NCBI RefSeq assembly: GCF_013402815.2
Contig: NZ_CP058601.1
Span: 2,728,001 to 2,792,000, forward strand
From: Natrinema halophilum
Lineage (GTDB): Archaea > Halobacteriota > Halobacteria > Halobacteriales > Natrialbaceae
Length of the DNA: 64,000 nt
Reading direction: 5' to 3'
Position 1 is the first letter of the stretch. Every line of letters begins with the position of its first letter. A program made the position numbers and the translations under genes. Shown piece after piece: positions 2 through 9,563 of this stretch. The notes under the pieces were generated by a model. It saw only the letters and a program-made list of their open reading frames with translations, was not told the DNA's origin and did not search any database.

Positions 2-211
2 CCGAAAGTACTCGGTACGATGTTCCTCGTCTCGACCCTCATCGCGATTCCGTTCCTGCCGATTACGGCGGCGCTGGTCGCCGCCCTAGGCGCGACGATC
101 GCCGACGGCGTGACCCTCGAAATTCGAACGTACATCATCGACGATAACCTGACGATCCCGATTTACGCCGCCTGTCTCGCGTTTCTGGCGCTCAGATTTG
201 TACCGCTGTAG
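2..211 (+). CDS. C-terminal fragment of a polyprenol/dolichol-kinase-like membrane protein (5' end outside window)
   Basis: The reading frame is open from the first bases and ends at 211, so only about 69 C-terminal residues are visible. They hold a hydrophobic helix, then the stretch ATIADGVTLE, a short IDDNLTIP segment and a final hydrophobic helix. This is the typical end of the archaeal CTP-dependent polyprenol/dolichol kinase or phosphatidate-cytidylyltransferase-like integral membrane family, where an acidic E(A/T)xxxxxDDNLxxP motif precedes the last helix. Such enzymes phosphorylate polyprenols at the cytoplasmic membrane face for lipid-linked glycan synthesis. The start and most of the protein lie upstream of the window, so the family call rests only on this tail. 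Confidence 0.55.
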   Translation, partial: PKVLGTMFLVSTLIAIPFLPITAALVAALGATIADGVTLEIRTYIIDDNLTIPIYAACLAFLALRFVPL

Positions 212-344
212 GGCGTGGCCGGCCGATTCGGCTGTCCAACTCGCGCGGCTGGTGACGAGGGGAACGGAATTCGATTCCGAAATCGGCAAGGGCGTACCGT
301 TCTGTAGGTCTCACGATCGTCGTACTCGAACGACACCATCCACC

Positions 345-1615
345 GTGTCTCAACCGGGAGCGACCAATCGACTGTCGAACGTGCGAGCGTTCTTGTCGGA
401 CGGCCGCGGCGCGATCCTCTCCGCCGTCGCAGCCGGCTGGTTTCTGTCGATCGGCATTCGGCTCGCGTATCCGGTGCTCCTGCCGTACCTCCGGAGCTCG
501 TACGGCCTCGACCTGACGACCACCGGACTTCTATTGACCGTCCTCTGGCTCTGTTACGCGCTGGGTCAATTACCCGGCGGGCTGCTTGCCGACCGGTTCG
601 GCGAAGGGAACGTCTTGGTCGCGAGCACCGCGATTTCAGCGATAACGCTCGGCCTCGTTGCCATCGCCGGCTCAGCGTCGGTAGTGTATCTGGCGACCGC
701 GGCCTTTGGGTTCGGAACGGCGCTGTACGGCGTCGCCCGGTTCACGACACTATCCAACATCTTCCCCGACAACGACGGCACAGCGATCGGTGTGACGATG
801 GCTGCGGGCCAGGCCGGTAACACGCTCTTGCCGCTTGCCGCAGGCGGAATCGCGTCCGCGTTTGCCTGGCAGTACGGGTTCGGCCTCGTCGTACCGGCAT
901 TCGCCACCGTGGCAATCGGCCTCCGACTTGCCGTTCCCGCACGCGCCTCGAGTACGACCAGTGCCGTCGACAGCGTCTCCCTCGAGACGGTCCGATACGT
1001 CGTCTCCGAACTGCGCCGACCGGACATCGTCACCGTGGCGGCGATCCAGATCCTTACGTACTGCGTCTGGCAGGCGTTTACGGGCTTCTATCCGACGTAC
1101 TCATCCAGATCAAAGGATTCTCACAGGCCGTCGCAACCGGCCTCTATAGCGCGTTTTTTGCGCTGAGGATCGTCGTCCAGCCGTTGACCGGCAGGTTGTA
1201 CGACCGATACGGGATCCGGAAATCGCTGCCACCCATCCTCGGCGTCGTCGTTCTTTCGCTCGTCGCGCTCCCGTTTCTCGAGGGGTTCTGGCCTATCGTC
1301 GCCGGCACCGTATTCTTGAGTAGCATCCTCGGCTACGGCACGATCACGCTGCCGTACATGACTTCGGCGTTCCCGTCGGACATGCAGGGGACGGGACTGG
1401 GGTTCCTGCGGACCGTCTACATGACCATCGGCGCGATGAGCCCGGTTCTGTTCGGGGCGCTCGCCGATGGGGGCTACTTCGACGAGGCGTATGTCATGCT
1501 GGCCGGATTCGTCGCCGTGCCGGTGGTGTTGACGTGGTGGTTGCCCGAGCTCTCAGAGGAATCGGTGGCTACCGAAGCTGCGATGGAGCACGCCAGTTTC
1601 TCGAGATGGTCATGA
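345..1615 (+). pseudogene. MFS transporter, disrupted by a single frameshift
   Basis: A GTG start at 345 (VSQPGATNRL) leads into a 12-helix major facilitator sequence. It has the MFS loop 2-3 motif GGLLADRFGEG near residue 80 and a second-half equivalent GRLYDRYGIRK. The first frame is lost at about position 1100, right after FYPTY; translation resumes one frame over as LIQIKGFSQAVATG and runs to the stop at 1615. Restoring one C (tac-ctc-atc) would give one continuous protein of about 420 aa, a normal MFS length. It is therefore a recent pseudogene or a one-base sequencing error. The substrate cannot be inferred. The stop overlaps the convergent PH-domain gene by six bases, and a decayed copy of its last 150 bases lies at 5091-5237. 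Confidence 0.85.
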
Positions 1616-3082
1616 TGGACACGCTGGTTCTTCAGGAAGATTCTCATCGAGAAGCCGTCGTTGAACCGTAGTTCCAACCGATTCGTTGACATCGGAGAGT
1701 CGAATTCCAGGAAGAAACGGTAATGAAGCGATATCAAGGCGTACTGAGATGAGCCCGACCCGCCGTTGAAACGGTGATTGAGAGATCGTCATATCCTGGA
1801 TATTGTCGTATGGGACGACGTAGGTCCGTTGTGTCCAAAAGCCATAGCGGACAACGATACAGTCATCCGCCAGCTCATAGCCACGGTGAGTCCACGAAAC
1901 ATGTGCTGCAAGTGGTGTGATGACGAGAATACCGCCAAACATCCCGAGTGGGATTAAGTCGAGCGCTGGAATGAATTGTCGTAGTACGACAGTGCCACCG
2001 GCCAGAGCGAGCGTGCCAAAACTGTATCTGACGAGATAGCGTCGTCGAGCGCGAGTGGGAATAGACTGCAACGTAGGTCGGCCGCGACCGATCGCACGTT
2101 CGACGAGTTGCCAGCCGATGTGCGTCTCAACGAGCGGTGCCAGTGGCCAGTGAAGTCCAAAGGGGAGTGAGCCCGAGATACCGGCGGTACCGACATCTGC
2201 CTGTACTAAGCCAAGAACGCGATGCAGTGGATTCGCTCTGATCCGTGCCACTTGAATTCGAGCGAGCGACAGGTCTGCGTCGTACTGTCTGATAAGTCCG
2301 TGTTGCTTTCGGAAATTGTTGTCTTCTACCGACAATTGAAACCCGAATAGTCGTTCGATTGAGAGCACAGCCCCGACCAACCAGCCACCGATTCCGACAA
2401 TGATGAGCATTAATCCTGGTGAGAGGGGCAGTATTCCACTAAACAGATCGATAAGTAGCGATCGAGGACTAGAAAGGGACTCCAGTGAGGTAAACAATAC
2501 TAGCCACCCTGCACCAATGGACAGGGCGACCGTCCGTAGTTGAAGTTGGGTACACCCAAAAAGAACGAGTTCTCGTGGAGAAAGTGAAAAAACGGTCTCC
2601 TGACTATCCTTGTTAGTATCTCCTGTCTGGTCAGGGGTGGTAGGGAGTCGCTGCTGGAGAACTGCAGCGTCGTCGGTGTCAAGATACCGGGCCGTTACTT
2701 CTGCCTCCTCAGGATCGCCAGCGGTTTCGCACTCAAATGCAGTTATGCCAAAAAGGCTGCTAACTGGCGTACGAAACGTGGAGGACTGTTGAATTCGGGA
2801 AAATGGAACGGTACGATGTTGAATCCGGAAAAAGCCAGATCGAACTGAAAGTGATTCATCTTCGATGGTGATTTCGAAGTTCCACCATTCAACAGTTTGA
2901 ACTATCAACTGCAATGTAAAATATACGAAAGCGATTATGAGTAGCGACCTGGTACCAGCGACGACTGACTCTATTCCCCGACTATCATTAATTACTGTTA
3001 GTACAACACCGAGTATACCGAAAAGCGTTAAGTCGAACTGTTCAATCACTCTGGCCGGAATGGATAACACACTCAACTTCAT
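1610..3082 (-). CDS. YdbT-like membrane protein with bacterial PH-like (bPH2, DUF304) domains
   Basis: This 490-aa protein alternates paired membrane helices with bPH2 domains. Helices lie near residues 20-65, 175-240 and 350-390; the PH domains carry ITIEDESLSVRSGFF, LSVEDNNFRKQHGLI and YELADDCIVVRYGFW, each followed by a (V/L)PxxxIQ-type segment. That is the architecture of Bacillus YdbT. It overlaps ydbS by 4 bp, so the two form a translationally coupled pair. In B. subtilis the SigW-controlled ydbST pair gives resistance to a circular bacteriocin, and bPH2 proteins occur in leaderless-bacteriocin clusters; that is known for the family and is not shown here. Base composition is clearly AT-richer than the flanking chromosome. 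An immunity role next to the halocin-like gene is my inference. Confidence 0.85.
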   Translation of the reverse strand: MKLSVLSIPARVIEQFDLTLFGILGVVLTVINDSRGIESVVAGTRSLLIIAFVYFTLQLIVQTVEWWNFEITIEDESLSVRSGFFRIQHRTVPFSRIQQSSTFRTPVSSLFGITAFECETAGDPEEAEVTARYLDTDDAAVLQQRLPTTPDQTGDTNKDSQETVFSLSPRELVLFGCTQLQLRTVALSIGAGWLVLFTSLESLSSPRSLLIDLFSGILPLSPGLMLIIVGIGGWLVGAVLSIERLFGFQLSVEDNNFRKQHGLIRQYDADLSLARIQVARIRANPLHRVLGLVQADVGTAGISGSLPFGLHWPLAPLVETHIGWQLVERAIGRGRPTLQSIPTRARRRYLVRYSFGTLALAGGTVVLRQFIPALDLIPLGMFGGILVITPLAAHVSWTHRGYELADDCIVVRYGFWTQRTYVVPYDNIQDMTISQSPFQRRVGLISVRLDIASLPFLPGIRLSDVNESVGTTVQRRLLDENLPEEPACPS

Positions 3083-3528
3083 ACTGACTTACCGTCATCG
3101 GTCAATTGATTGAGCTGGTTCGAGAGTGCCGTTGCACGGTCCGAATCAAGGCCAGGAATAGTGATTTGGCCGTCAAATACGCCCGCGGTATGGATTCGAA
3201 GCGAAACGAGTCCAAATGGTCTCCCGAGGAGACTGTGGTTGATATCGATATGTTGTATCTTATCAGCAGGTACGAATGTATCTCGAATAGTGACCACGCC
3301 TTGTCGTAAATGAATACCATCCTTTCGAATCTCGTATCGGAACCTGCGGAATCGAAGGACAGCCAGCATAGTACCAACGATAAGAAACAGAAATACGATG
3401 ACGAGGGTCGACAGATCTGTCACTGAAAACGTAGTCGTGAGAACTGAAACTCCGACTCCGATTCCAATCCCCAGCAATAGCCATTTCAGTATCCATAGGA
3501 TTTGGATACGCGAATGAAGTCTGTTCAT
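3079..3528 (-). CDS. YdbS-like membrane protein with a single bPH2 domain
   Basis: A protein of about 149 aa begins MNRLHSRIQILW, the usual start of YdbS-type proteins (basic RLHxR before the first helix). An upstream in-frame ATG at 3561 is possible but adds residues not typical of the family. Two membrane helices (about residues 12-55) precede one bPH2 domain with YEIRKDGIHLRQGV, then FVPADKIQHIDI, a GRPFGLVSL turn and ITIPGLDSDRA, all hallmark positions. It is the first gene of a two-gene unit with the YdbT-like protein. The shared 220-bp region with the divergent halocin-like precursor makes coordinated expression plausible. Confidence 0.85.
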   Translation of the reverse strand: MNRLHSRIQILWILKWLLLGIGIGVGVSVLTTTFSVTDLSTLVIVFLFLIVGTMLAVLRFRRFRYEIRKDGIHLRQGVVTIRDTFVPADKIQHIDINHSLLGRPFGLVSLRIHTAGVFDGQITIPGLDSDRATALSNQLNQLTDDGKSV

Positions 3529-3718
3529 CACAGTATCTGTCTGGAAACGCTTGCAAGGCATTCAACTTGTCTGCTCTGAGATGTTCTATTCATCCCCATT
3601 GGATTAAAAATATCGATACTGGCTTCTCGAGGAACCAGCCGTAATTAGGAGAATTGGACCTGTCCCATGTATTATACAGTATTTTTGCATCAAATATTAA
3701 TTGGTACAAGTATAAAGA

Positions 3719-3725
3719 TTTAATA
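3719..3725 (+). promoter_or_regulatory. TATA box of the halocin-like gene
   Basis: TTTAATA lies with its centre 30 bp upstream of the ATG at 3752, inside a very AT-rich 190-bp intergenic region. This spacing predicts a leaderless or nearly leaderless transcript, which is common in haloarchaea. A second TATA-like string (TATAAAG) lies at 3711-3717. An AGGTG two bases before the ATG is too close to act as a Shine-Dalgarno site. Confidence 0.5.
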
Positions 3726-3751
3726 CCAAGTTATAGTAATAATTAGGTGCG

Positions 3752-4642
3752 ATGTCGGAAGGAAGTAAGGAGGATGAATTAAATCGCAGAAAGATGCTAA
3801 AGATGAGTGCTGGCGTTAGTATTCCCACGATCGGTCTCACCGCGGCTAGTGGGCCCAGTAGTGCCAGCCATACTGAGGGAGGGAATATACGAAATATAAA
3901 TGACCTCGAGGTCCTTGATCAGGAACAGGTATCTGATAACCAAGCCAGCCAATGCTTGCAGATAGTGAAGCAATCGAGAATCGGCGAGGATTTTGTTAAC
4001 GATATCAAAAATAGGTATGAAGTAGAAGTAGCAGGCGTAACCGCGTTCCGAGTAACCACAAACAGCGAATGGATTGAAGAAAAGAATCCAGAGATTGTCC
4101 TGATAGGTGTTGGGTCAAAAGAAAGTAACTCCGCTGGTGGACTGATTTATGGAGTTATTGCGGATTCAGAATCAGCTGGGCGTGAACTAGTAGTTGTTCG
4201 TGGATTAATTGTCCCAAGGAATGGAAATAATAACGTTTCCATCCAGCATCGGGCTCAACACGGAACGAAAGCTATTGAGCACGTACCAGACGACAAAAAA
4301 GGATCCGAAATAGTGGATCGACATACTTTAGAATCGCTTCACGGAACTGGAGATGAAAATAGTCCAGGCACCTCTCATGGAGGTGTATCCACACAATCCT
4401 TCCATGGTACTATTGGAACGGAGGTGTGTATTGGAATCATATCCCTGATCTGTGAGAAATACGGCTCCAATGTAGCAAGAACACAGTGTGTCCCTGCGTG
4501 TGGCGCGGTTGGTCCAAGTGGACCCTTTGGCTACACCGCTTGTTTAGCATTTTGTGCATTAGCCGTGAAAGTCATTTCAGGGAAGGGATGCCATGTTGGT
4601 GGTGCTGTGATCTGCCAAGAGATCTTTGAGCGTGTAACGTAA
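3752..4642 (+). CDS. Tat-exported precursor with a halocin-C8-like cysteine-rich C-terminal peptide
   Basis: This 296-aa protein has a twin-arginine signal (NRRKMLKMSAGVSIPTIGLT, residues 11-30), a propeptide of about 180 residues with one cysteine (C68), and a distinct C-terminal domain after about residue 215. That domain has eight cysteines (226, 234, 246, 250, 264, 268, 280, 288) set among glycines and small hydrophobics, including CVPACGAVG and CLAFCALAV. Halocin C8 precursors have the same layout: Tat signal, an N-terminal part acting as immunity protein, and a C-terminal Cys-rich microhalocin of about 76 aa with a CxxxC(S/G)A(A/V)G segment. Mature C8 has ten cysteines and this one has eight, so it would be a divergent relative. 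Low GC suggests acquisition from elsewhere. No halR/halT-like regulator or transporter genes are adjacent. Secretion, cleavage and killing activity are inferred. Confidence 0.65.
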   Translation: MSEGSKEDELNRRKMLKMSAGVSIPTIGLTAASGPSSASHTEGGNIRNINDLEVLDQEQVSDNQASQCLQIVKQSRIGEDFVNDIKNRYEVEVAGVTAFRVTTNSEWIEEKNPEIVLIGVGSKESNSAGGLIYGVIADSESAGRELVVVRGLIVPRNGNNNVSIQHRAQHGTKAIEHVPDDKKGSEIVDRHTLESLHGTGDENSPGTSHGGVSTQSFHGTIGTEVCIGIISLICEKYGSNVARTQCVPACGAVGPSGPFGYTACLAFCALAVKVISGKGCHVGGAVICQEIFERVT

Positions 4643-5090
4643 TCCACCACCGTATATTGTTATTGTCTCACTTTCGTTCCGATGTAGTATAAATAGCTAC
4701 AAGTACGATTTCAGACGGTGGATTATATAATTTACCAAATTACTTATACGAATGGTTTGTTCCGTGCACTCCACCCTAGTGTCAACATCGGCATCTATCA
4801 CCACGTTTTCTCTCGTTTTCTCACAGCAGACTATCTTATCCGGTTTGGCTATAGCACACCGTTACCTGGGGGAATAGTTACACAGACACGCTTTCCGCTC
4901 GAGTCGATACACTCGAGGCTAATTCTGCTTTCACCGCGGTACGCGAACCCGTGTTCGCGGCGATAACAAACGATAAGTAATTACAGTAATGGACGGGGCA
5001 CGAAGCCGCAGACGGGGCACGAAGCCGCTGTCTCTCGAACACCGACTTCCTCAAGCACCGACCCTAGATGAAATTCGCAGGCACAGCAGT
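4643..5090. other. Non-coding stretch after the halocin-like gene, with a 19-bp direct repeat
   Basis: No credible gene is seen. An 82-codon open frame at 4718-4966 has no family features, no good start signal and non-haloarchaeal composition. AT content falls gradually from 4643 to about 4975. A direct repeat of 19 bp (GACGGGGCACGAAGCCG plus two bases) occupies 4992-5010 and 5011-5029. The stretch ends where similarity to the MFS 3' end begins. Confidence 0.5.
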
Positions 5091-5237
5091 AAACCATCTA
5101 CGTGACCATTGGCGCGGCGAGATGGGTCCTGTTCGGCGTGGTGGCCGATCGGTGACTCTTCGACGAGACAGGGGGTATGGTGGCTGGGTTCGCCATCGCA
5201 GTTCCGGTGACGCGGTGGCTACCTATGCCTGCAGAAC
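5091..5237 (+). pseudogene. Decayed second copy of the MFS transporter 3' end
   Basis: Read in one frame, this stretch gives TIYVTIGAARWVLFGVVADR, a stop, then LFDETGGMVAGFAIAVPVTR and WLP. It lines up position by position with the C-terminus of the MFS gene at 1414-1552 (TVYMTIGAMSPVLFGALADG, YFDEAYVMLAGFVAVPVVLT, WWLP). There is an internal stop and no upstream part, so it is a remnant. Its orientation matches the copy at 345-1615. The two copies bracket the low-GC PH-domain/halocin segment. Confidence 0.75.
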
Positions 5238-5281: not shown

Positions 5282-5782
5282 TCAGGCGTTCAGCCGCCAG
5301 AGTTCGAAGTTCAGTACGGCCGCGAACGTCACCCACGCGAGATAGGGGACCAACAACGCCGCAGCACGCGTGTCGACCCGCCGAAACGCGATGACGGTTC
5401 CGACGACGAACGCCCAGAGTGCGAGGATGATCCCCAGTGCGACCAGCGGTGCCTCGAGCCTGAAGAATGCGGGCGTCCAGGCGACGTTGAACAGCATCTG
5501 GACGGCGAACAGCCCCAGCGCGAGGCGACGACCGTCGGCATCGCTACGCCAGACGAGCCAGAGCGCGACGCCGAGAAGCGAGAAGAGAGCCGTCCAGACG
5601 ACCGGGAACGCGATCGTCGGCGGATAGAACCAGGGCTTAGCGAGGCTCCTGAACCAGGCGGTGTCGGGGCTCGAGAGAATCCCCGGGAGACCGCCGACGA
5701 CGTTTATCAGGAGGACGAATCCAACCGCGACGAGAACGGACTCAACATCCGGGAGCCGGCGGGTGCTCACTCGAGTATCCAT
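5282..5782 (-). CDS. tspO: TspO/MBR family tryptophan-rich sensory protein
   Basis: This 166-aa protein has five membrane helices. Family markers are GGLPGILSSPDTAWFRSLAK, then PWFYPPTIAFPVVWTALF in the loop and helix 2, and NVAWTPAFF and LNFELWRLN near the end, rich in tryptophan as usual. TspO proteins bind tetrapyrroles and related ligands in the membrane and modulate stress or light responses; several haloarchaea have one. It is monocistronic, facing away from the MFS remnant. Its upstream side holds a 17-bp tandem repeat array. Function beyond ligand binding cannot be read from the sequence. Confidence 0.93.
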   Translation of the reverse strand: MDTRVSTRRLPDVESVLVAVGFVLLINVVGGLPGILSSPDTAWFRSLAKPWFYPPTIAFPVVWTALFSLLGVALWLVWRSDADGRRLALGLFAVQMLFNVAWTPAFFRLEAPLVALGIILALWAFVVGTVIAFRRVDTRAAALLVPYLAWVTFAAVLNFELWRLNA

Positions 5783-5930
5783 ATGTGATGTATGCTGCGA
5801 GCGAATTTATACCCTGCAGACGTCAGCAAGCAACGGACCGCCTGAGAGTACCCACCGCCGCGAATCGTGATCGGACGGTCAGCGTTGGGACGAACGGCAC
5901 GGTACCGAGCAGCCGATCCACACGATTCAG

Positions 5931-6032
5931 GCGCTGGCACAGTATCGGCGCTGGCACAGTATCGGCGCTGGCACAGTATCGGCGCTGGCACAGTATCGGC
6001 GCTGGCACAGTATCGGCGCTGGCACAGTATCG
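5931..6032. repeat. Six perfect tandem copies of a 17-bp unit
   Basis: The unit GCGCTGGCACAGTATCG is repeated head to tail six times with no mismatch, starting at 5931, 5948, 5965, 5982, 5999 and 6016. It lies between the 3' end of the beta-propeller gene (stop at 6069) and the 5' side of tspO. Because 17 is not a multiple of three and the unit contains no stop, several frames stay open across it and produce spurious ORFs. No spacers are present, so it is not CRISPR. Confidence 0.98.
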
Positions 6033-6068
6033 GTGATACTGCACGGAGGCAACGAGCAACTCGTCCTG

Positions 6069-7733
6069 TTACTCGGCCGGTTCGTCCGAATCGACCCGCC
6101 GACGAAGCCACTCGAGGCCGAGGGCACCTCCTGCAATCCCCGCACCGGTCGTAAAGCCCGGGACGTCGTCGGATTTGGTGTCATCCTCGGCATCAGTCGG
6201 TTCGTTCCCTGTCCCGGTTCCGTCACCGGTGGGTGCATCGTCACCGCCAGTCTCGTTGTCGTCGGCCGTGCCGTCGCTTCCACCGGTCTCGCTCTCGGTG
6301 TCCGTGTCGTCGCTTCCACCGACCCCACTATCGTTCTCGTCGGCCGTGCCGTCGCTTCCACCGGTCTCTCGATCACTGTTATCGCCACCACCGGCTCCAC
6401 TATCGCTATTATCGCCACCACCGGCTCCACTATCGCTATTATCGCCGCCACCGGCTCCATTATCGTCGTCGGTAGCATCCTGATCCGTATCCTCGCCATC
6501 GGATCCGGTGCGGTCGTCTGTAGACTCACGAAGTGCAACCAGCTTGCCCTCCCTATTATGATCGACATAGATGGTCTCGCCACTGATCGCATCGATATGT
6601 CCAACTGGTATGTCGTCCTTGGATAGCACCCACTTCTCGGAGCCATCGTATTTATTCAGAGCGACCAGTGCCTCATCGTATTCAGCGTTGGGAGGTCCAC
6701 CGTCCCTCGTAAAATAAGAATAGACCGTCTCCCCACTGATGACACCGTGGCCATAGAGATGTGGCTTGTCAATCGTCCAATCATATTCGCCGTCCATCTT
6801 GATAGAACCCCCGTTGATACCAGTATCCCACCCGCTAACGTAGATCTCTTCGCCGAGCGCTGGTGCTTGCCAGCCAGTTCCATTTAGAAAATCGCCTGTT
6901 TGCGCATCGTAGATTTCGGTCTCGATTTGTGATACTTTGGCCAAGACTGCAGTCTCCGTGGCGGAAATACCGGAGCCATCGTATATCGGCCTTCCATTCT
7001 TCCAGACATCGTCACCCGTTTCAGGTTCAAAAGCGAGGAGACCGCCCGGTGTACCGGCGTAGACGACCCCGTTCGCTGCAGCAGTGGTGGTACAAAACTC
7101 GTATTCTTCCGGCTCATCGGAGTCATACGGTGTCACCATGACTGACTCCTTTTTCCAGCGGAGAGATCCATCGGCAGCCTCCAGAGCGTACAACGTCCCA
7201 TCGACGACGGAATACACACCATCATATGCGACTGTTGTCCCCGCCCCGGAGCCAAAATCGTATTTCCAGCGGACGCTGCCGTCCGATCGGTCGAGCGCCA
7301 CGACTGGTTCGCCGCTGAGGTACACGGTGTCGCCGACGACGGAGGGGCCCCCAGCGTCGACGTTGGAGTTCTTCCAGACGAGCGCGCCGTCCGCGGCGTC
7401 GCGGGCCTCGACACCGGCATCCGTCGTTACATACACCGTCTCATCGGCGATCGCAACGGAATAGCTCTCGCCGTAGTCGACGGACCAGGCCACCTCGAGC
7501 GCGTCACCGTCGATTTCGGGCCCGTCTTTGACGTATCTGGCGTGGCCAGCATCCCCGAGGTACGACGGCCAGTCTTCGTCCATCTCCGGATTTGGCTGCA
7601 GAGATGGATCTGGAAGATCGTCGAGCCCGTTCACCGCCGAACCCGACTTCCCCATCCCGATCGATGCGAGCCCACTTCCGAGGGGCAAGGCTGCACCAGC
7701 CGCGAGTATCGAACGTCGATCCCAATCTGTCAT
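6069..7733 (-). CDS. Tat-exported PQQ-like beta-propeller protein with PGF-CTERM anchor
   Basis: The start at 7733 (MTDWDRRSILAAGAALPLGS) places a twin-arginine signal at the N-terminus; an upstream in-frame extension has no signal features. About 554 aa: signal, then PQQ-like propeller blades (repeats of the type VYxxxDGTLYALEAADGSLRW and GETVYLS...VALDRSDGSVRWK) to about residue 420. A long Asp/Gly/Ser linker follows with three copies of GAGGGDNSDS, then VPGFTTGAGIAGGALGLEWL and basic residues. The last part is a PGF-CTERM signal, cut by archaeosortase A with transfer to a lipid anchor in haloarchaea. The protein is expected on the outer cell surface as a binding or scaffold protein. No catalytic residues are apparent. 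It is a tandem paralogue of the next gene. Confidence 0.85.
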   Translation of the reverse strand: MTDWDRRSILAAGAALPLGSGLASIGMGKSGSAVNGLDDLPDPSLQPNPEMDEDWPSYLGDAGHARYVKDGPEIDGDALEVAWSVDYGESYSVAIADETVYVTTDAGVEARDAADGALVWKNSNVDAGGPSVVGDTVYLSGEPVVALDRSDGSVRWKYDFGSGAGTTVAYDGVYSVVDGTLYALEAADGSLRWKKESVMVTPYDSDEPEEYEFCTTTAAANGVVYAGTPGGLLAFEPETGDDVWKNGRPIYDGSGISATETAVLAKVSQIETEIYDAQTGDFLNGTGWQAPALGEEIYVSGWDTGINGGSIKMDGEYDWTIDKPHLYGHGVISGETVYSYFTRDGGPPNAEYDEALVALNKYDGSEKWVLSKDDIPVGHIDAISGETIYVDHNREGKLVALRESTDDRTGSDGEDTDQDATDDDNGAGGGDNSDSGAGGGDNSDSGAGGGDNSDRETGGSDGTADENDSGVGGSDDTDTESETGGSDGTADDNETGGDDAPTGDGTGTGNEPTDAEDDTKSDDVPGFTTGAGIAGGALGLEWLRRRVDSDEPAE

Positions 7734-7949
7734 CGAATCGTCATTCGGAAGAGACGGTTTTACTATCCATGAAATACAGTTACTTGATTTAATTGCAACT
7801 GAGAGAAAACATTGAAACCAGCAATAGACGGGGGAAGAACCCGACATTGTGAGAGAAAACGAACAGTATCGATAGTGTATTTTATACACTGAAAAAGTCC
7901 GACCGACGGTCACCTGCCGGTGAGAGATCGGCGGCTATCGCAATTCAGT

Positions 7950-9563
7950 TCAGTCGTCCGGGTCAGTGTGTCGTCGGAGCCACTCGAGACCGAGGGCCCC
8001 ACCGACGATTCCCGCACCAGTGGTAAAGCCCGCCACGTCGTCGGCACTGTCCGCATCCTCGGTGTCGGACGATACGGAACCGTCTCCATCTCCGCCGCCG
8101 GGTCCGGCCTCGTCCTCGCCGCCGGAGTCGCCATCGATCGCGTTTTCTGAAGCGGAGGATTCGTTTCCTGTAGCGGTTTCATTACCGGTCGTTTCGTCAT
8201 CGCTCGTGTCGCCGTCTCCGTTACCGCCGTCGCTTGAGTTACCGTGACTGCCTCCGGCGCGTCCGCCGTCTCCGCTCCCCTTATCGAGACGCGCCGTCTG
8301 CGCACGAAGCGCAACGAGTTTGTTGTCGCCGTCGTGGCCGCCGCCTCGATCGACGTAGATGGTCGTCCCACTGATCGCCCGAATCATTCCGACTGGAACG
8401 TCGTCGGCTGATACGGCCCACTTCTCGGTCCCATCGCGTTTGCTCAGGGCCACGAGTTCGTCACTGTAGTCCGCAGATGACGACTGTCCGTCCGGGACCG
8501 AGTCATCGGGGATATAGACGTAGACGGTCTCGTCGCTGATAACGGGTCTGGCACTGGTATGGAGAAGAGAGATATCCCAGAGCCGGTCAGACGGGTTCTC
8601 AAGAGACTTACCGAAGAGGTCCCAGTCGTCTCCGCTGACGTAGACCGATTCGCCGAGCGCGATGTCGACGCCCGCCGAAAGACCGAGACGGAGTCCCGCA
8701 CCAGTTTTCGCATCCACGACGTTCACACGATTGTATGTGAATCGTCCGAGGACGGCCCCTGTCGTCGTGGCTTGAGCCCGGTCGTACTGATAGCCGCCTG
8801 CACGGTTCGATAAATTCACAGTGCTCCGCCACACTTCGTTTCCGGACTCGGGCTCGAGGGCGAGGGCGACTCCCGCCGTTGCGGCGTACACTACGCCGTT
8901 CGCCGCAGCGGCGGACGTGACAAACTCGTACTCGTCTGCCTCGCCGTTTCCTGAGGAGCCGACCGTGACCGATTCGATGAACCACCGAACCGATCCGTCG
9001 GAAGCCTCGAGGGCGTACAACGTTCCATCGACGACGACGTAGACGCCGTCGTACGCTACCGTCTGGTCGGAGAGGTACTCGTCAGCCTCGAAGTCAGTCT
9101 TCCAGCGAACGCTGCCATCCGACCGATCGAGTGCTACTACTTCGTCCCCGGAGAGGTAGACGGTCTCGCCGACAACGGAAGGAGTCGTCGCGTCGACGTC
9201 GGCGTTCTCCCAGATGAGAGAACCATCAGTTGCGTCGAAGGCGACGACGCCCGTTGCAGTCGTCGTATACACCGTCTCGTCGGCGACAGCAACGGGGCCC
9301 GCGTGGTCGACGGACCAGACTGCCTCGAGCGCATCACCGTCGAATTCGTATCCATCATCGATGTATCGTGAGTGGCCGGCATTCCCGGCGTAAGACGCCC
9401 AGTCTTCGTCCATCGCAGGGTTTGGCTTCACTGCTGGGTCCGGGAGATCGGCAACCCAGTCCCCCGTAGTATTGGTCTCGCCCAGCCCGGCCGATGCGAA
9501 CCCACTCCCGACCGAAAGCCCTACACCGGTCGCTAGTACCGAACGGCGATGCCAGTCTCTCAT
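7950..9563 (-). CDS. Tat-exported PQQ-like beta-propeller protein, tandem paralogue with AGF-type C-terminus
   Basis: This 537-aa protein starts MRDWHRRSVLATGVGLSVGS (Tat signal). Its blade sequences match the downstream paralogue closely (VAVADETVYTTTATGVVAFD, YDGVYVVVDGTLYALEASDG). A Gly/Asp/Ser linker leads to DDVAGFTTGAGIVGGALGLE, a hydrophobic segment and basic residues. The sorting tripeptide reads AGF where the paralogue has PGF, so archaeosortase recognition may be altered. The two genes are codirectional with 216 bp between them, which suggests separate promoters. They clearly arose by tandem duplication. Ligand and partner are unknown. Confidence 0.85.
   Translation of the reverse strand: MRDWHRRSVLATGVGLSVGSGFASAGLGETNTTGDWVADLPDPAVKPNPAMDEDWASYAGNAGHSRYIDDGYEFDGDALEAVWSVDHAGPVAVADETVYTTTATGVVAFDATDGSLIWENADVDATTPSVVGETVYLSGDEVVALDRSDGSVRWKTDFEADEYLSDQTVAYDGVYVVVDGTLYALEASDGSVRWFIESVTVGSSGNGEADEYEFVTSAAAANGVVYAATAGVALALEPESGNEVWRSTVNLSNRAGGYQYDRAQATTTGAVLGRFTYNRVNVVDAKTGAGLRLGLSAGVDIALGESVYVSGDDWDLFGKSLENPSDRLWDISLLHTSARPVISDETVYVYIPDDSVPDGQSSSADYSDELVALSKRDGTEKWAVSADDVPVGMIRAISGTTIYVDRGGGHDGDNKLVALRAQTARLDKGSGDGGRAGGSHGNSSDGGNGDGDTSDDETTGNETATGNESSASENAIDGDSGGEDEAGPGGGDGDGSVSSDTEDADSADDVAGFTTGAGIVGGALGLEWLRRHTDPDD

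Follow-up and report, generated by a model that had tools for sequence, protein, structure and literature searches.

A halocin C8-like precursor gene and a ydbST pair in an AT-rich insertion of Natrinema halophilum: a putative antimicrobial and immunity cassette

The toxin family and the membrane protein pair considered here are each already known. In Bacillus, YdbS and YdbT (159 and 493 aa; PMC8657885) carry one and three bPH_2 domains, are encoded by tandem genes of a sigma-W envelope-stress operon (PMC3498285) and protect against amylocyclicin (PMC8144471), which has been listed as a saposin-like bacteriocin (PMC6072434). Leaderless bacteriocin clusters, among them those of enterocin DD14 (EntDD14; ddE/ddF), enterocin L50, lacticin Q (lnqC/D) and aureocin A53 (orf7/8) (PMC8657885), also place a helical bacteriocin, in or near the saposin-like group, beside a PH-domain pair (PMC6072434, PMC7559574). 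Here we describe an AT-rich block within a 64,000-nucleotide stretch of Natrinema halophilum contig NZ_CP058601.1 (the window), in which a halocin C8-like precursor gene is divergent from a ydbST pair. We propose, with a probability of about 0.6, that this block is a horizontally moved cassette that combines an antimicrobial with YdbST immunity.

The precursor matches halocin_C8_dom (TIGR04449, NCBI model) over residues 225-290 of 296, with 25.5 bits against a cut-off of 24 (E 1.9e-5), and its subfamily profile aligned with the profile of canonical C8-type precursors from signal to C-terminus (98.4%, E 9e-15; hhalign). Like the halocin C8 precursor (proC8/HalC8), it is a twin-arginine translocation (Tat) precursor of similar length, in which a pro-domain precedes a Cys-rich hydrophobic C-terminal domain. 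In the full-length AlphaFold2 (AF2) model, the signal is followed by a folded pro-domain, then by a disordered linker and finally by the helical domain. The predicted local distance difference test score (pLDDT) of the pro-domain is mostly 73-95 over residues 51-160 and 81-85 over residues 171-190; hhalign covers the HalI-type pro-domain at 15% identity, a weak match, and a fold search of this part against the PDB returned no clear or usable match. The last 75 residues contain eight cysteines (226, 234, 246, 250, 264, 268, 280 and 288), whereas halocin C8 has ten: the precursor lacks the pairs C1/C10 and C4/C7 and has C250 and C268 as new cysteines. A congener (G004, locus L065) presumably carries the mature halocin C8 sequence. 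A further difference is that the window has a separate, adjoining ydbST, whereas in proC8 immunity is ascribed to HalI, which is part of the same precursor (PMC11509114).

The window pair resembles Bacillus YdbS and YdbT in size (160 and 490 aa), in domain content and in the tandem arrangement of its genes, with the start of ydbT overlapping the stop of ydbS by 4 nt. Hydropathy indicates about 2 membrane segments in YdbS and 4-6 in YdbT, compared to 2 and 6 in Bacillus. However, the pair is archaeal and linked to a Tat-type halocin-like gene rather than part of a sigma-W stress operon. The window also differs from the leaderless clusters, whose peptides have neither leader nor Cys and which use ABC transporters, in encoding a Tat precursor with disulfide-type cysteines. 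The AT-rich block is an insertion, because the major facilitator superfamily (MFS) gene and tspO, separated by about 3.4 kb in the window, are neighbours only tens of bases apart in the majority of 28 congeners; several congener loci aligned only to the upstream part of the left flank and are uninformative on this junction. The tspO gene was present in 28 of the 29 genus genomes searched. Positions 1616-5090 have a GC content of 0.479 (window median, 0.618), essentially the minimum for a block of 3.5 kb across the 64 kb. The original prediction, made from the sequence alone, had described this segment as AT-rich against a GC-rich chromosome and as holding a Tat-signal precursor with eight cysteines in its last 75 residues, divergent from a coupled pair of membrane bPH2 proteins, and all of these features were borne out, with all three genes intact. 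It had also likened the C-terminus to microhalocin C8 and proposed a profile search against the halocin C8 families; the match to TIGR04449 upholds the homology, but the cysteine set is not that of C8.

TIGR04449 matches were found in 44 of 391 Halobacteria genomes, and 62 loci, the window included, were examined. In seven, ydbT adjoins the toxin gene: the window, L044, L049, L056 and L091, all with ydbS, and L031 and L036, with T only and tail to tail. A subfamily-profile search within the window's family added an eighth, L098, an H-S-T operon of 38-52% GC. Thus, the proposed survey of haloarchaeal ydbST neighbourhoods yielded eight loci where the pair co-occurs with C8-like precursors, each with ydbT or ydbS no more than about 0.6 kb from the toxin gene and all, judged from named members, in the window's family, the Natrialbaceae. 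L044 is a second cassette in the window's own genome, and L049 lies on Haloterrigena turkmenica plasmid NC_013745, with products annotated as halocin C8-like and PH domain-containing. Gene order varies among the linked loci, being divergent or same-strand downstream, so the linkage has been maintained despite rearrangement. The L044 cassette is flanked by a universal-stress-protein gene and a conserved gene, which lie next to each other in most congeners compared; empty sites were therefore seen for two insertion points. Overall, the toxin genes are patchily distributed, horizontally moved and fast-changing, and stand beside varied small membrane genes. For a scan of a sequence collection, alignments of distant homologues yielded no pattern; a narrower alignment did, and its pattern matched only Natrialba aegyptia, at a contig edge where the ydbST side is cut off from view. 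Viral contigs gave no match, and there was no defence-system match.

The YdbT tree divides the linked proteins between an accessory clade (window, L056, L044, L091, L049 and L098) and a separate core-type lineage (L031 and L036). The window and L056 group in both the toxin and the YdbT tree, as do L044 and L091; L049 and L098 pair in the YdbT tree and form one small, poorly split clade in the toxin tree. The trees built from these sequences agree. An unlinked chromosomal ydbST clade (L092-L097) falls inside the accessory clade beside the window and L056, with moderate support (81/90); the filter used found no Cys-rich Tat precursor near these loci, and their ydbST could be old orphan immunity. 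At the site of the second cassette, congener G397 retains a small membrane gene, ydbS and ydbT, all intact and 84% identical at the DNA level, and has no toxin gene. Between G000 and G397, omega is 0.08 for YdbS and 0.16 for YdbT. Such a cassette is as expected of an immunity gene and favours self-protection, because it is typical of immunity that the protecting gene stays when the toxin is gone, whereas decay would be the likely fate of a dedicated exporter.

Recurrent pairing, including one toxin loss, points to protection of the producer by the PH-domain pair. The precursor would leave the cell through the Tat pathway, after which an extracellular protease would cleave the disordered linker to free a small disulfide-rich helical domain, and this domain would attack the membranes of related haloarchaea; YdbS and YdbT would protect the producer, probably by shielding its membrane or by binding the peptide. 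In a C8-type setting, ydbST would add to or replace HalI immunity. Cleavage is probably by a secreted subtilase, since a haloarchaeal precursor can be activated by such enzymes (PMC12893001) and a Tat-type subtilase gene (L098:9561-11033; PF00082, E 2e-45), a candidate maturation protease, lies beside the H-S-T cassette. The putative self-protection cassette of the original prediction has thus gained support from the linkage and from the toxin-less cassette of G397.

The main rival explanation is that YdbST aids export or maturation, as DdE/DdF do for enterocin DD14, and protects only indirectly, by ridding the cell or membrane of peptide. When ddE or ddF is deleted, EntDD14 is no longer exported and toxic accumulation follows (PMC8657885), and the adjacent, co-inherited toxin and ydbST genes are compatible with such a role. 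However, the window precursor carries its own Tat signal, most related precursors are without ydbST, and the G397 pair has stayed intact at the same site without a toxin gene; we consider an export function unlikely. Alternatively, the cassette may be real and mobile but ydbST a general membrane-stress module, travelling with the toxin or recruited for envelope maintenance and giving no specific protection. The stress operon of Bacillus fits this idea, as does core ydbT, present in 389 of the 391 haloarchaeal genomes, but toxin linkage is confined to particular YdbT lineages whose tree follows that of the toxin, and a general role of this kind seems rather improbable. We give slightly less credence still to a secreted Cys-rich domain that is not antimicrobial, for instance a saposin-type signalling or lipid-binding protein with YdbST as its membrane partner. 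Saposins do bind lipids without killing and the score to the halocin family is weak, but patchy, mobile, fast-changing genes beside varied small membrane genes are typical of bacteriocins. Because nearly every haloarchaeon has a core ydbT, we also estimated chance linkage, using a rough binomial with 2-4 ydbT copies per 4.4 Mb. Islands at insertion hot spots do gather unrelated AT-rich genes, and L031 and L036 could be a single chance event; however, eight loci with two separate YdbT lineages and varied gene orders, compared to approximately 0.1-0.3 linked neighbours expected (P 1e-7 to 1e-13 on these rough assumptions), make a coincidental neighbourhood very improbable, and chance pairing was rejected on these counts.

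Several observations weigh against an antimicrobial and immunity cassette. The majority of halocin C8-like loci are without ydbST, so the family does not need it, and the near-universal core ydbST of haloarchaea means that the pair has other jobs. The precursor scores barely above the TIGR04449 cut-off, and no saposin-like structural match has an E-value below 0.6 in Foldseek. The L044 cassette is not AT-rich relative to its surroundings. The omega values between G000 and G397 average both lineages and leave the toxin loss undated. Finally, the described systems offer other roles, with HalI already credited with immunity in proC8 (PMC11509114) and the PH proteins of EntDD14 needed for export (PMC8657885).

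We also examined the cysteine set and predicted fold of the mature domain. Coupling was scored over 58 homologous domains, in which C1 and C10 are gained or lost jointly (phi 0.86), C4 and C7 co-occur perfectly (phi 1.0), and C268, often accompanied by C250, is perfectly exclusive of C4/C7 (phi -1.0). The coupled cysteines may be read as disulfide partners, with C246-C268 and C250-C264 as the predicted bonds in the window type and C1-C10 and C4-C7 in C8. The window precursor belongs to a subfamily with a rewired cysteine set. The AF2 model of the domain has four helices (pLDDT 86; predicted TM-score, 0.75). Foldseek ranked saposin D, NK-lysin, saposin-like proteins (SLPs) and caenopore-5 highest, all non-significant (E 0.6 or worse, TM-score 0.45-0.56); the top nine are all saposin-like (E 0.6-2.7, TM-score 0.45-0.52), and caenopore-5 has a TM-score of 0.55. 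Sequence searches for saposin relatives gave no significant match. A CxxC start and a Cx5C end make up the saposin disulfide frame, and this arrangement is present in 28 of the 49 homologues having both outer cysteines. The window domain lacks the outer cysteine of both motifs, and its resemblance to the SLPs consists of a small, predicted four-helix domain and of the frame seen in many members of its family. A saposin-like fold is predicted and weakly matched.

From these comparisons we tentatively draw a broader picture, which we hold to be possible but doubtful. In Archaea as well as Bacteria, YdbST-type PH pairs would be dedicated to partnering saposin-fold antimicrobials. The halocin C8-like peptides would be an archaeal, saposin-like group that attacks membranes and whose disulfides can be rewired, and ydbST would provide their immunity as a separable module that other membrane proteins can replace. 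If true, C8-type halocins would have a separate immunity system, one lineage of archaeal YdbST would gain a function, and a common rule would emerge, namely that helical saposin-like bacteriocins, whether bacterial or archaeal, come with PH-domain membrane pairs. Cross-protection can be tested directly, given a toxin-less congener and a genome with two cassettes. Our literature search, which did not reach Makarova et al. 2019 (mBio), returned no paper linking halocin with saposin or halocin with a PH domain. That study reportedly expanded the C8 family. The haloarchaeal pairing, rewired cysteine class, toxin-less cassette and saposin link have no joint description within the literature searched, and earlier notice of the pairing is possible.

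Features of the cassette and its flanks, in window coordinates
Feature	Position	Strand	Evidence
Left flank: MFS gene, split into two reading frames	198..1615	+	PF07690 on both parts
Inserted AT-rich cassette	1616..5090 (approximate ends)	.	Between MFS gene and tspO; empty site in most of 28 congeners; GC
YdbT-like membrane protein, 490 aa, three bPH_2	1610..3082	-	PF03703 E 6.4e-41, 3 stretches
YdbS-like membrane protein, 160 aa, one bPH_2	3079..3561	-	PF03703 E 6.1e-15; hydrophobic stretches 21-68
Divergent intergenic region, 190 bp, 35% GC, presumably both promoters	3562..3751	.	
Halocin C8-like precursor, 296 aa, N-terminal Tat signal, C-terminal antimicrobial-like domain	3752..4642	+	TIGR04449, hhalign
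Tat signal region, residues 1-39, NRRKMLK	3752..3868	+	Sequence; R12, R13 and L16 conserved among homologues
Pro-domain, residues 50-193, predicted alpha/beta fold, counterpart of HalI in proC8	3899..4330	+	AF2
Disordered linker, residues 194-216, likely processing region	4331..4399	+	pLDDT <50 at 194-216
Mature-type domain, 84 aa, 8 Cys, four predicted helices, saposin-like best matches	4388..4639	+	AF2, Foldseek, Cys coupling
Degraded second copy of MFS 3' end, right edge of insert	5093..5209	+	72% identity to 1412-1525, E 1e-12
Right flank: TspO/MBR gene	5282..5782	-	PF03073 E 9e-45

Other small membrane genes were seen at related loci. An ORF of 111-115 aa lies on the opposite strand before ydbS at L044:8116-8457, L091:7572-7919 and L163:7685-8020; such an ORF is also retained in the toxin-less cassette and is a second immunity candidate. 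Membrane genes at two halocin C8-like loci without ydbST (L090:6436-7050 and L055:8328-9056) were considered as immunity genes, a role weakened by weak matches to DNA-binding-type domains, and their products are possibly membrane-bound regulators. Near an unlinked ydbST, L095:3874-5158 holds a distinct Tat precursor of lower GC, with 262 aa and six Cys; a 108-aa membrane gene comes after it, and the two may be another archaeocin cassette.

In the flanks of the insertion, the split of the MFS gene reflects either a frameshift or a sequencing error; the reading frame is unbroken in congener loci L114, L117 and L120. Just upstream of tspO, at window positions 5930-6033, there is a perfect tandem repeat with 6.1 copies of a 17-bp unit, GGCGCTGGCACAGTATC. 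Beyond it, positions 6069-9563 encode two neighbouring long Tat-type proteins, apparent duplicates, in which propeller-like blocks are repeated and the tails are of low complexity (Gly/Asp/Ser).

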